From: Hydrogenophaga sp.
Lineage (GTDB): Bacteria; Pseudomonadota; Gammaproteobacteria; Burkholderiales; Burkholderiaceae_C
Reading direction: 5' to 3'
Assembly (NCBI GenBank): GCA_016790705.1
Contig: JAEUOT010000063.1
Span: 1-64,000, forward strand
DNA length: 64,000 bases
The notes below the pieces were generated by a model. It saw nothing but the letters and a program-made list of their open reading frames with translations, was not told the DNA's origin and did no database searches. Positions 38,133 through 43,336 of this stretch are shown in pieces. Positions within the stretch are counted from its first letter, which is position 1. Every line of letters starts with the position of its first letter. A program made the translations under genes and the position numbers.

Positions 38133-38260
38133 CAGCTATGGACAACACCACACGAAACCCGACGTTGTTGTTCCAGTTGTCGGGTTGATTCCTGTTGCGA
38201 ATCGACGCGCGCGCGTTCTCGGCGGTGTTGTTCCACGCGCCACCACGCAGCGCCGGTGTG
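38133..38260 (-). repeat. DGR template repeat (TR)
   Basis: A 128-base copy of the 3' end of the target gene, on the minus strand as the target is. Read in that sense it would encode TPALRGGAW-NNTAENARAS-type peptide with nine Asn codons (eight AAC, one AAT). Against the variable repeat at 39913-40040 it differs at 17 positions, all A in the TR (13 A-to-G, 3 A-to-T, 1 A-to-C); no C, G or T differs. It holds 29 adenines in all. Invariant GGGTTTCGTGTGGTGTTGTC lies near its 3' end. It is antisense to the reverse transcriptase gene and touches that gene's 5' end. The frame through it is open but lacks features of a gene. Confidence 0.95.
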
Positions 38261-38303
38261 GGCGCCCGCCGGGACATTGCCCGAACGGGCAGCATCCGCC
38301 GCC

Positions 38304-39907: not shown

Positions 39908-42900
39908 CTATTCAGCCAGGGACAACACCACACGAAACCCGACGAAGTCGTCCCAGCCGCCGGGTCGACTCCTGCTGCGAACCGACGCGCGCGCGTACTC
40001 GGCGGTGCCGCTCCACGCGCCACCACGCAGCGCCGGTGTGGCCGAGTCTGAAGGCTCTTCTCCCATCACCAACCAATCGCTGCTGTCGGGAGAACCGGCC
40101 GCTGGGCTCTGGAGCTGCCGAATGCGCTGACCCGCCGGGTGCGGTGCTTTGTCCGCGTGCAGGTTGTCCTGCCACTCCCAGAGGTCGCCGTTCAGGTCGC
40201 AGATCCCCAAAGGACTGCACGGGAACAGCCCTACAGGGCTGGCCTCGTGCAAACCGCTTTCAAGGATGTTGGCGCGCAACGCCACCTCTGCCTTGTCATC
40301 GTTCCAGACGTATTCCCGCCCGTCTGGCGGGCTGCCGAAACCGCTTGCCCGGGCAGCGCGCTCCCATTGGGCTTCAATCGGCAACTCGACCCGTGCGTTA
40401 CCCAGATTGACTGCGTTCAAACGTAGCCTGAACGCCTCATGCCGGTTCAGCCAGCGCGCATAAGCCCGCGCCTCAAACCAGTTCACCCCACACACTGGGC
40501 GGCTGCCCCAGGGCCGTTGCTGTGCCCATAGAGCGGGCGCTTGGCGCTCTTCCACCGGGCGCTGGCCCAGTCGCTCTTTGAGCCACTTGGGGGTGGTTGG
40601 GTGGCGATCCCACTCGCCGCTCACCCAGGCCCAGCCCTGGGTATCCCACCAGTCGGGCTTTTCTCCACCAACCGTTCCGTAGCCACCGTCTTCCATAAAG
40701 GCAGCGAACTGGTCCACCGTGGTGAGGTAGCGGGCCATGAGGAAGGGAGCCAGACTGACTTTGTTGCCTTGCGTTGGCTGGAAATCACCGCGTTCCTTCT
40801 GAACCCAGACGAAGCCGGGCAAAGGCTCCTTCTGATTGTCGTGTTCGGGATACTGGTTCTTGGGCAGATAGAAGAGGCTTGGGTCGAACCGTTGGTCAAG
40901 CCCCAGCGCAACGTACAAGTTGGCGCGCAGCGCCGAATCTTTCAGGGTCGTGGTGTCCGGATGGGCCTCGGCGGGCTCCCACTGGGGGACCGGCAGTCCG
41001 GTCAGATTCCAAAACGCGCGTGCGTCGTCGTGGACGAGATGCGGCGCGAGATAGTTCAATCCTTTGGCCAGCCGCAAACGACGTCCGACCAAGTCCCGGT
41101 CATCATTACCCCTGTCCAGTGCAGCCCGCAGAAACTCCCGCTCCACCTGGGCGATCAGCGCTTGTGCGCTGCGCGGACCCAGCGCCTCCCCTGCCGCCAA
41201 ACCCGCGACCTGGGCCACCGTTTTCTGGGTGGCCTCGTCGGGGGCGACCAGCGCGAGAAACAGCGCGTTGACGTCGGGCGCTTCGACCACGTGGGCATGT
41301 CGCTGCCGCGTAGAGGCGGGCGCCGTGGTCAAATCGGCGCCGAGGCGGGCGCCTTCACCTGCGGCCAACGGGCCAAGGTCCTGACGCCCGCCCGTAGTGC
41401 CTTTCGAGACGCCGGTCTGCGCAGTTGCAGCAATGGTCTCCACCACCTCCCTGGGCATCTGCAGCGACTCGACAGCTTCACGCGCCAGCAGGGCAAAGAG
41501 ATTACCGTTCAGCCGAAGCGGAATTTTGTCCGCGCGTGCGCTCTGCTCCAACAGCTGCATGAGCTTGAGCGGGTCAAACGGATGGCGCTGGATGCTTCGG
41601 TGCTCCAGCAGCCGCTCGACCAGCGGCAGGCGTTTGTGCTGGGTGGCGTGGCGCTCGGCCACATCGAGCCGGGGGATGCGTTGCTGAGCGGCGCGCAGGG
41701 TGCCGGGGGGTTGGTCATCCAGGAAGTAAACCGCCCAGTGCAACAGGTCGGCGTCGGCAGTGGTGGCGCTCAGTTGGCGGCGAACCCGCTCCTGACGGGT
41801 CGGCTCGCTGGACTCGACAGGTTTGAACGCGTCGAAGAACAACTCAAAGGTGTCCGCACTGCGGCGCAGGCTGCGGTAGAGATCGGGCTGAAAAAGCTGC
41901 AGCAACAAAAGCGCGATCACGCTGCGCGGGTCGTATTCGCCACCGAGCGCCAATTGGCGTGGAGGCTTCATGCTCTCCAGCACGTCCTGCACCTGTTGGA
42001 ACAGTTCCACCACACGGATCAGCTTGCGCGGTACATGGGCGTTGAAGCTGTCCAGAACCAAGAGCGCGAGATTCAGCCGGTGCTGCACGCCGACCTGTGC
42101 GGCTCCGTGTTCCGCTGAGACGGGCAAAGACCCGGCATCCGAACCGGCTGCGCCGCGCTCCCGAACGGGCCCCCACACGGCATCGCGTCCCCCGTCCAGC
42201 AAAAACCAGCGGCGCTGGGCCATCCAACGGGATCGTGCATCGGCCTGTTGTGTACTGCCTTGTCCGGGCCATCGACGGCGCGCCTGCTCCTCCAGAAGCG
42301 CGGCTTCGTGACAGGCCAGAAATTGAAGCCCCTGCTCCTTTGTCAACAGCGGCAGCCGGAACGGCAGATGAACGATCTTCTCAAGGTATTCGAAGCCGGT
42401 GATGGGCATTTCGGGCTTCTTGTTCTGCAGCGCGTAGTCCTTGTACCGGTGGCCAATCCCGCGCTCAACCACTTCTTCGTCCAGCGCCAGCACGAAGGCG
42501 AAGCTCTCCAGGTTGAAGACGGTCTTGATGAGTTCCAGGGTTTCGACGGCTTTTTCGGGCAGGCAGCGGTCTAGGTCGTCGATGAAGATGACGAAGTTGA
42601 TGCGGGCGTTTTGATTGAGCTTCAGCTTTCCAAGAGCCTCCACGCGCTTACCCGGACGGGTCAGCGCACACAAAACGTTGTGAAAGTTGTAATAGAACCG
42701 CCCTTCGGTGCTGAACTTGAAGTCGCGGAGCCAGTCCGCGTCATCCGGTCGCTTGAGCAATTTGGCGAGCCACCCTGCGGTCTTGAACCCAATGGATACC
42801 CCAGCGGCGGTAACAGGATCAGCGACAGCTAAGTCGGCCACCGTCGCCTTGTAGACCGCTTCAAAGTTCTCGACCAAATCCGGCAAGGTTTCAATGCTGG

Positions 42901-43336
42901 AAGACCACACAGCGTCAGCAACCTGCGCCGTTTTTTCAGACAGGGTTTGCGCCTTGGGAATGATGTCTCGAAGCGCCTGGATGATGTGCAGCAGTAGCGG
43001 GACCAGCAAGTGCGGCTCGTGCTCGTACTTCCAGGGCTGAAACAACACGGGAACGGTCAGTCCAAAGCCGGCATCACCAAAACCACCGTCTACCCCGCGT
43101 CGGTTGCGGGCACGCTGGGCTTCATAGTCGGAGGCTCGATCCAGGGTGAGTTTGAGTAGCGTGCTTTTCCCCGCCCCCCATTCGCCAAAAATGCCCACGA
43201 CCAGCGGGTCATCGCCCAGCGTCTTGCCGCTGCCCAGGTCTTTGTCCAGCGCGGCCTGCACGCGATTCCACAGCGTGTCCGCATACACGCCGTAGCCCAG
43301 GTAGTCGCCGTTGTCTTTTTCGGTTCCTTCTGCCAT
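39908..43336 (-). CDS. DGR target: KAP-type P-loop NTPase fused to FGE-sulfatase domain
   Basis: A 1142-residue protein from ATG 43336. N-terminal KAP-family NTPase: Walker A GEWGAGKST (51-59), the FQPWKYEHEP motif (99-108), a hydrophobic insert (about 170-195) and Walker B FVIFIDDLDRC (248-258). A long helical middle (about 380-850) has no domain I recognise. The last 270 residues are a formylglycine-generating-enzyme-like domain with the C-type-lectin fold (LMARYLTTVDQFAAFME, GVNWFEARAYARWLN, LPIEAQWERAAR, GDLWEWQDN, RGGAW...GFRVV). The final 43 residues are the DGR variable repeat. Thirteen residues differ from the TR-encoded version. No signal peptide is present. Likely an NTP-driven sensor with a diversifiable ligand surface; role inferred. 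Confidence 0.9.
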   Translation of the reverse strand: MAEGTEKDNGDYLGYGVYADTLWNRVQAALDKDLGSGKTLGDDPLVVGIFGEWGAGKSTLLKLTLDRASDYEAQRARNRRGVDGGFGDAGFGLTVPVLFQPWKYEHEPHLLVPLLLHIIQALRDIIPKAQTLSEKTAQVADAVWSSSIETLPDLVENFEAVYKATVADLAVADPVTAAGVSIGFKTAGWLAKLLKRPDDADWLRDFKFSTEGRFYYNFHNVLCALTRPGKRVEALGKLKLNQNARINFVIFIDDLDRCLPEKAVETLELIKTVFNLESFAFVLALDEEVVERGIGHRYKDYALQNKKPEMPITGFEYLEKIVHLPFRLPLLTKEQGLQFLACHEAALLEEQARRRWPGQGSTQQADARSRWMAQRRWFLLDGGRDAVWGPVRERGAAGSDAGSLPVSAEHGAAQVGVQHRLNLALLVLDSFNAHVPRKLIRVVELFQQVQDVLESMKPPRQLALGGEYDPRSVIALLLLQLFQPDLYRSLRRSADTFELFFDAFKPVESSEPTRQERVRRQLSATTADADLLHWAVYFLDDQPPGTLRAAQQRIPRLDVAERHATQHKRLPLVERLLEHRSIQRHPFDPLKLMQLLEQSARADKIPLRLNGNLFALLAREAVESLQMPREVVETIAATAQTGVSKGTTGGRQDLGPLAAGEGARLGADLTTAPASTRQRHAHVVEAPDVNALFLALVAPDEATQKTVAQVAGLAAGEALGPRSAQALIAQVEREFLRAALDRGNDDRDLVGRRLRLAKGLNYLAPHLVHDDARAFWNLTGLPVPQWEPAEAHPDTTTLKDSALRANLYVALGLDQRFDPSLFYLPKNQYPEHDNQKEPLPGFVWVQKERGDFQPTQGNKVSLAPFLMARYLTTVDQFAAFMEDGGYGTVGGEKPDWWDTQGWAWVSGEWDRHPTTPKWLKERLGQRPVEERQAPALWAQQRPWGSRPVCGVNWFEARAYARWLNRHEAFRLRLNAVNLGNARVELPIEAQWERAARASGFGSPPDGREYVWNDDKAEVALRANILESGLHEASPVGLFPCSPLGICDLNGDLWEWQDNLHADKAPHPAGQRIRQLQSPAAGSPDSSDWLVMGEEPSDSATPALRGGAWSGTAEYARASVRSRSRPGGWDDFVGFRVVLSLAE
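39913..40040 (-). repeat. DGR variable repeat (VR)
   Basis: The 3' terminal 128 bases of the target gene, reaching to 5 bases before its stop codon. Pairs with the TR at 38133-38260 (offset 1780). Changed codons give S1109, G1110, Y1114, V1119, S1121, S1123, R1124, G1126, G1127, D1129, D1130, F1131 and L1140, where the TR encodes mostly Asn. RGGAW and VGFRVVLS around them are fixed. The changes cluster in the solvent-exposed loop region of the C-type-lectin fold. Confidence 0.95.

Follow-up and report, generated by a model that had tools for sequence, protein, structure and literature searches.

A diversity-generating retroelement of inverted layout with a KAP-NTPase target gene in Hydrogenophaga sp.

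The window analysed here, a stretch of 64,000 nucleotides from Hydrogenophaga sp. (contig JAEUOT010000063.1 of assembly GCA_016790705.1), contains one diversity-generating retroelement (DGR) at about 37971–43390, flanked by a truC-like and a DUF3501 gene. Judged from its sequence, it is a genuine and complete inverted DGR, probably functional, whose target is a KAP-FGE protein. The reverse transcriptase (RT) and the accessory protein Avd are encoded on the plus strand; the template repeat (TR), the variable repeat (VR), the target gene and the template-RNA spacer lie on the minus strand. DGRs as such are known, as are inverted DGRs (PMC3521204) and targets with a KAP nucleoside triphosphatase (NTPase) domain (PMC10907252); what is uncommon here is the layout. 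An initial annotation of the same DNA had claimed a complete DGR, and TR, VR, RT, Avd and target are indeed all present where it had placed them. Its statement that no part is disrupted holds as well, with intact RT and Avd frames and conserved catalytic motifs. It did not mention that RT and Avd are encoded opposite to TR, VR and target.

Components of the element and differences between the repeats

The RT gene (38304–39419, plus strand) codes for a DGR-type enzyme of 371 amino acids, which matches RVT_1 (E 2.5e-19) and a PHROG reverse transcriptase family (E 6e-107). It contains the motifs IGNLTSQ (38925–38945, of the (I/V/L)GxxxSQ type) and YVDD (39021–39032, of the YxDD type). The best NCBIfam model is that of a group II RT, at 137.8 bits far under its cut-off of 300. 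The avd gene (39416–39865, plus strand, 149 amino acids) overlaps the RT stop with its start, and its product was assigned by bAvd (E 1.7e-18), the NCBIfam model DivGenRetAVD (84.1 bits, cut-off 80) and a PHROG Avd family (E 1.6e-20). All seven loci tested among the nearest ones in the RT tree clade have TR/VR pairs.

TR (38133–38264) and VR (39913–40044), both on the minus strand, are 86% identical. Read in the sense of the target gene, there are 18 differences over 132 positions, and 17 of them fall on TR adenines, of which the repeat has 29 (hypergeometric p = 7.8e-13). These comprise thirteen changes from A to G, three from A to T and one from A to C. The sole non-adenine difference, at 38262, is located at the edge of the homology; with the edges excluded, all 15 differences fall on adenines, of 27 in the core. 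The earlier statement that the repeats differ only at TR adenines is thus correct away from the edges and slightly too strong for the full length. Fourteen codons are changed, 13 of them with a changed adenine, and among these AAC is turned into a codon for Ser, Gly, Tyr, Asp or Phe. A search for further VRs in the genome yielded none besides that of the target (other matches had E 0.019 or worse and spanned at most 40 bases).

Two of the 17 adenine differences are located inside an end mark, which reads CCATAG in the TR and CCCTGG in the VR. For comparison we analyzed 80 of 186 confirmed loci of relatives (labeled L below; 14 without a pair and two with a weak one), whose TR/VR pairs were retained only if at least 75% of the differences were at A; because of this selection, the share of adenines in those pairs is no independent result. 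The difference CCATnG/CCCTGG was present in 11 of 74 pairs (the window, L014, L015, L016, L017, L019, L020, L021, L026, L028 and L041), which account for all but one of the 12 rows in a starred group of the RT tree, and was absent in this form from the remaining 63. Since it recurs in these pairs, all from near relatives, the end marks are better read as the sites for initiation of mutagenic homing, IMH* in the TR and IMH in the VR (terms as in PMC12875486). The IMH*-like mark of the TR is CCATAGCTG at 38141–38133, on the 38133 side, and the IMH-like mark of the VR is CCCTGGCTG at 39921–39913.

Lectin-fold surfaces are variable in many protein families, so that the VR residues might simply vary as a binding surface under ordinary selection, without any retroelement activity. 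We regard this as hardly credible, because two DNA copies in one genome differ off their edges exclusively at TR adenines, in any codon, and an intact RT, Avd and spacer adjoin the repeats.

Strand layout and template-RNA spacer

Along the target strand the order of the element is target with VR, then avd and RT reversed, then TR, i.e. the RT-avd block is inverted between VR and TR. With the RT on one strand and TR, VR and target on the other, the element belongs to the inverted DGRs (group 4). Across 81 loci, the window included, the TR lies on the RT strand in 58 and on the opposite strand in seven, while 16 had no usable pair or a weak one; 36 of the 58 co-directional loci have the VR before and the TR after the RT. 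The opposite-strand loci are the window, L014, L018, L037, L057, L067 and L068. In L037, L057, L067 and L068 the avd gene is found on the TR strand, so the RT alone is turned there, whereas RT and avd are turned together in the window and in L014. L018 carries its VR on the RT strand and its TR and spacer on the other, i.e. the template alone is turned. In another locus (L144, genome G251) one TR is accompanied by two VRs on opposite strands (18/18 and 14/15 differences at A), with avd opposite to the RT. A quick RT tree of 88 rows, in which window, L014, L017 and L028 make up a four-member starred group, implies at least three changes of TR strand.

The closest counterpart is L014, from a metagenome-assembled Betaproteobacteria genome (JAPUER010000017). 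It shares the arrangement TR (minus), RT (plus), avd (plus), VR and target (minus), a KAP-FGE target and a spacer on the minus strand; it differs in its neighborhood and in sequence, with 60% identity for RT, 52% for Avd and 40% for the target. The window layout was observed in none of the order-level RT loci retrieved. The nested inversion is nevertheless not limited to window and L014, because plasmid pREC1 of Acaryochloris marina (L157) also has avd and RT turned between the TR and two of three VRs, and its TR and VRs are on the strand opposite to these two genes. Unlike in the window, avd precedes the RT in pREC1, one TR matches three FGE-family genes, IS200/IS605 transposase genes lie inside and the RT is only ~43% identical. 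This locus adjoins genes for a MoxR ATPase and a serine protease.

Inverted group 4 DGRs have been described in Shewanella baltica, Vibrio sp. RC586 and Photobacterium angustum; their RTs cluster, which was read as one inversion event (PMC3521204). As in the window, the RT is on one strand and TR, VR and target are on the other, with long repeats carrying A substitutions; in the window, avd is inverted along with the RT and both lie between VR and TR, a comparison made with the text on group 4 only. According to another paper, there are 122 DGR cassette patterns, with an inverted RT in pattern G5 (PMC6642488), and the nested inversion may already be among them. Replication direction and homing are treated in PMC12875486, and nothing relevant was found on strand terms in PMC8144416, PMC7517822 and PMC10053308. 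The Bordetella phage BPP-1 DGR (L152) shares RT, Avd, TR, VR, IMH logic and a lectin-fold target with the window, whereas it is phage-borne, has its parts on one strand in the order VR-avd-TR-RT and a GC-rich hairpin after the VR (PMC3240598), and its RT is 31.6% identical. No DGR paper naming Hydrogenophaga was found in the openly licensed literature.

Next to the TR on the minus strand lies the template-RNA spacer (37971–38132), which extends into the 3'-terminal part of the truC frame. Its left limit is a predicted one: the spacer likely ends in a near-perfect palindrome at 37971–37996 (24/26). The annotated extent, 38133–43336, covers the five parts named above and falls short on the left, as the spacer runs from 38132 down into the truC frame. 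Motifs common to the relatives are found within the ~180 nt downstream of their TRs: GCCAGC, a GGTCG...CGGCC stem followed by AAATA, and a terminal hairpin. We built a model (R1) from 15 loci whose TR shares the strand of the RT, leaving out window and L014; its alignment comprises 15 of 38 sequences that were chosen after the window spacer had been seen. It is mainly a model of sequence, since RNAalifold gave only five pairs for the spacer set. R1 matched the window best at 38022–38146 on the minus strand (22.1 bits, E 6.7e-5; next match 6.8 bits) and L014 at 7608–7787, also on the minus strand (52.7 bits, E 2.9e-12). In 27 further loci there was a match at E 1 or less in 22, and all five opposite-strand loci among them had their best match on the minus strand beside the TR. 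The window counterpart of the stem/AAATA part, GGGTGAATCG, was recognized by eye only. An Rfam search gave a single match at chance level. Thus the spacer follows the strand of the adenines and not that of the RT in 7 of 7 opposite-strand loci, and the template RNA is predicted to be antisense to the RT.

Target protein and its variation

The target gene (39908–43336, minus strand) codes for 1142 amino acids. Pfam, an AlphaFold2 model and a fold search assign a KAP P-loop NTPase domain (residues 43–448; PF07693, 108.4 bits, cut-off 20) and a C-terminal FGE-sulfatase/C-type lectin domain (residues 859–1137). Walker motifs are present as GEWGAGKS at residue 51 and FVIFIDDLDR at residue 248. The VR codes for residues 1099–1141, i.e. 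the last 43 but one. The fold search matched TvpA, TaqVP and Mtd; it barely covered parts outside residues 389–1141, and some stretches of the KAP region are poorly modeled by AlphaFold2. An assignment as the Qat ATPase QatA was rejected: the NCBIfam equivalog reached 96.6 bits against a cut-off of 600. The QatA models of PADLOC align to a portion of the KAP domain.

From its domains, the product is predicted to be a sensor in which a variable lectin-fold tip is joined to a KAP NTPase. In a domain scan of the RT clade covering 47 of 87 VR-bearing frames, picked by length, most of the DGR targets tested were NACHT-FGE proteins. Targets of this type have been read as conflict sensors in PMC10907252 and PMC7159879, and it is from these and from the domain make-up that we infer a possible role in conflict or defence. 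DGRs of clade 5D likewise join an NTPase (STAND or KAP, KAP being one of several types) to a diversified C-terminal C-type lectin domain, and commonly have two targets, NACHT or nSTAND1, whereas the window has one; the likeness refers to targets and not to placement in a tree (PMC10907252).

Variation among homologues is concentrated at the residues coded with TR adenines. In the three closest proteins, P0002 (73% identical), P0003 and P0004, only 5, 5 and 1 of 17 such residues are identical to the target, as opposed to 26 of 26 other VR residues in each; in the remaining FGE domain (836–1098), 223, 196 and 175 of 258 residues are identical. Six further homologues have 1–5 of 16–17 adenine sites and 19–25 of 26 other VR residues in common with the target. 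Two pairs of metagenome contigs have equal lengths, those of P0003 and P0124 (both 7,026 bp) and those of P0006 and P0123 (both 21,120 bp), which suggests that target and RT occur together on them. For 64 target sequences, the window included, the mean entropy is 2.97 bits at the 17 adenine codons and 0.92 bits at the 26 others (Mann-Whitney p 7e-8, indicative only, as the sequences are related to one another); these 64 were taken from 120 listed homologues, nine of which were checked site by site. The expectation of the initial annotation that variation is confined to positions with a TR adenine is borne out in the three closest homologues of other organisms and not in P0005 and the six others, which vary elsewhere too. 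Such variation at adenine sites is as predicted for repeated mutagenic homing. Together with the intact frames it also supports the earlier view that the element is probably functional, and the DGR likely keeps rewriting the tip of its target protein. Since the homologues come from other organisms and not from strains of one population, present activity is only an inference.

Downstream of the VRs we observed a further feature, mainly in the relatives. CTG units, mostly 7–9 nt apart (about TTCTGA), follow most VRs of the RT clade (stretches L014–L093), and not the TRs. By a motif and a chain rule fixed after inspection of the stretches, chains of at least three units occur after 75% of the first VRs (68 examined), 76% of the additional ones (17 examined) and none of 68 TRs, and in 2.8% of 4080 random windows. 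A stricter motif was present for 40 of the 74 VRs, for no TR (of 74) and in 0.5% of shuffles. In a general test for a periodicity of 6–10 nt, 21 of the 74 VRs reached the 99% level, whereas none of the 74 TRs did. L014 and the window have only two units; the two-unit motif of the window, TCTGAAACCTG (39894–39904, minus strand), is located just past the target stop and is a possible remnant of the relatives' array. The general periodicity after the window VR (0.36, random mean 0.45) does not single it out, so we confine the claim of an array to the relatives. DGRs on Acaryochloris and Nostoc plasmids have an array of other letters (CCCTTTA-like, period 8), and the periodicity test gave none after the BPP-1 VR. 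A hairpin or cruciform downstream of the VR is a feature of a subset of DGRs; in the window, a 40-nt fold at this place appears only under RNA parameters (-9.3 kcal/mol). No description of tandem arrays downstream of VRs was found in the openly licensed literature, as judged in part by titles and the opening of abstracts. The CTG array is possibly a target-site element.

Chromosomal setting and proposed mechanism

The element is flanked by the truC-like pseudouridine synthase gene (37247–38029, plus strand; PseudoU_synth_2 in Pfam, best NCBIfam model TruC with 266.4 bits, below its cut-off of 328) and the DUF3501 gene (43391–43981, minus strand; PF12007, E 3e-72). In seven congeners (genomes G069, G078, G026, G064, G024, G073 and G083) truC and DUF3501 are directly adjacent and oriented towards each other, in agreement with the annotated setting between housekeeping genes without a visible prophage. 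DNA homology to congeners ends at 37915–37944 on the left and starts again at 43385–43392 on the right, and the last codons of the truC frame likely come from the element, into the end of which the frame runs on. Terminal inverted repeats were rejected: the best pair (37990/43367, 14/18) was equalled in 16 of 300 shuffles. As for a phage origin, six exact peptide patterns gave no match in viral contigs, and the RT matches 150 phage records, all below 60% identity (top listed 35.6%). The site may be an insertion hotspot, because different genes are inserted between truC and DUF3501 in four other congeners, G074, G005, G007 and G080 (L130–L133). Read by eye, the frames of these inserts include a UmuC/UmuD-like pair and SelA/SelB-like, GNAT-like and SEC-C/TPR-like ones.

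The RT gave matches in 6 of 399 genomes of the order (E 1e-70) and 3 of 369 of the class (E 1e-85), window included. The target gave matches in 3 of 67 genomes of the genus (E 1e-100) and 2 of 399 of the family (E 1e-150), window included. At E 1e-30, none of 35 congeners has an RT match. At E 1e-10, only G063 among 11 congeners (one shared with the 35) has a match, 40% identical and in another place. This RT belongs to a second, unlike DGR (L148, C1:3549000-3565000) with a TR at 7295–7398 and several VR candidates. At a separate locus, G063 has the target next to DUF3501, followed by an avd remnant (residues 86–126, 58%) turned as in the window; neither RT nor truC was found within 14 kb. G034 has kept the target, and there is no RT or avd within 13 kb. 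The two look like decayed forms of one locus, which would descend from a single insertion.

The genome, 84.75% complete, comprises 3.75 Mb in 71 contigs, of which C35 is the window. Its fragmentation and incompleteness and the 35 congeners lacking the RT would fit a contig misplaced by assembly or binning. We consider such an artefact very improbable, because both flanks lie on one contig with the element and have ~77–90% DNA identity to congeners up to the junctions, and because the target adjoins this DUF3501 gene in G063 as well.

Based on these results we propose the following mechanism, which we hold to be very likely: a complete DGR, with RT and Avd opposite to TR, VR and target, copies a template RNA from the minus strand with errors at adenines and inserts the copy into the 3' end of the target gene. 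The parts and their strands, the adenine pattern, the relatives-type spacer on the template strand and the position of the VR in a C-type-lectin-like domain lead to this proposal. Transcription of the minus strand, either continuing out of the target gene or started at a promoter within the antisense RT gene, would yield an RNA of TR and spacer. RT and Avd would be expressed from the plus strand, perhaps through transcription that continues beyond truC, and would act on this RNA in trans. Synthesis of cDNA would begin at IMH* and the product would replace the VR up to IMH. PMC3521204 concludes that the RT message and the template RNA can be separate transcripts.

Several observations count against this mechanism. 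No sigma-70-like promoter, for TR or RT, was found within 37200–44000, and for the window and 16 relatives, the sequence preceding the TR did not score clearly above shuffles as a promoter. The spacer match skips 67 of 181 positions of R1, including the conserved 5-bp stem and AAATA part, and the spacer folds no better than shuffles (z -1.0). Homologue P0005 (52% identical, outside the site-by-site check) is altered in its VR region at non-adenine sites too, and the genome is fragmented and incomplete. The missing promoter and the partial spacer match, along with the apparently decayed loci G063 (target and avd remnant without this RT) and G034 (target alone), would also suit a once-active DGR that is now silent, the inverted layout having cut the template RNA or the RT off from transcription, with the VR as a frozen record. 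We judge this to be unlikely, given the intact RT and Avd frames and catalytic motifs. Moreover L014, with an RT 60% identical, has the same layout and its own TR/VR pair with 18 of 21 differences at A, so the inverted layout has been kept together with adenine-patterned VRs.

A different interpretation of the layout starts from TR and spacer being antisense to the leader of RT and avd, so that RT transcripts starting upstream of the TR, e.g. by truC read-through, carry a full antisense copy of the template. The layout might then be a control circuit in which enzyme and template supply hold each other down, and flips of the template strand would be changes of regulatory mode rather than neutral shuffling. 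We regard this as improbable. If it were true, diversification would be on only when transcription of the target strand outweighs that of the truC strand.

The element is a well-bounded chromosomal DGR for which the empty site, the intact element and apparently decayed forms are visible within one genus. The CTG arrays after the relatives' VRs point to a target-site mark unlike the Bordetella hairpin. The KAP-NTPase protein with a lectin-fold tip that the element would diversify represents a putative antigen-sensor design, and the inverted layout lends itself to asking whether co-transcription of template RNA and RT is needed and whether antisense overlap controls mutagenesis.

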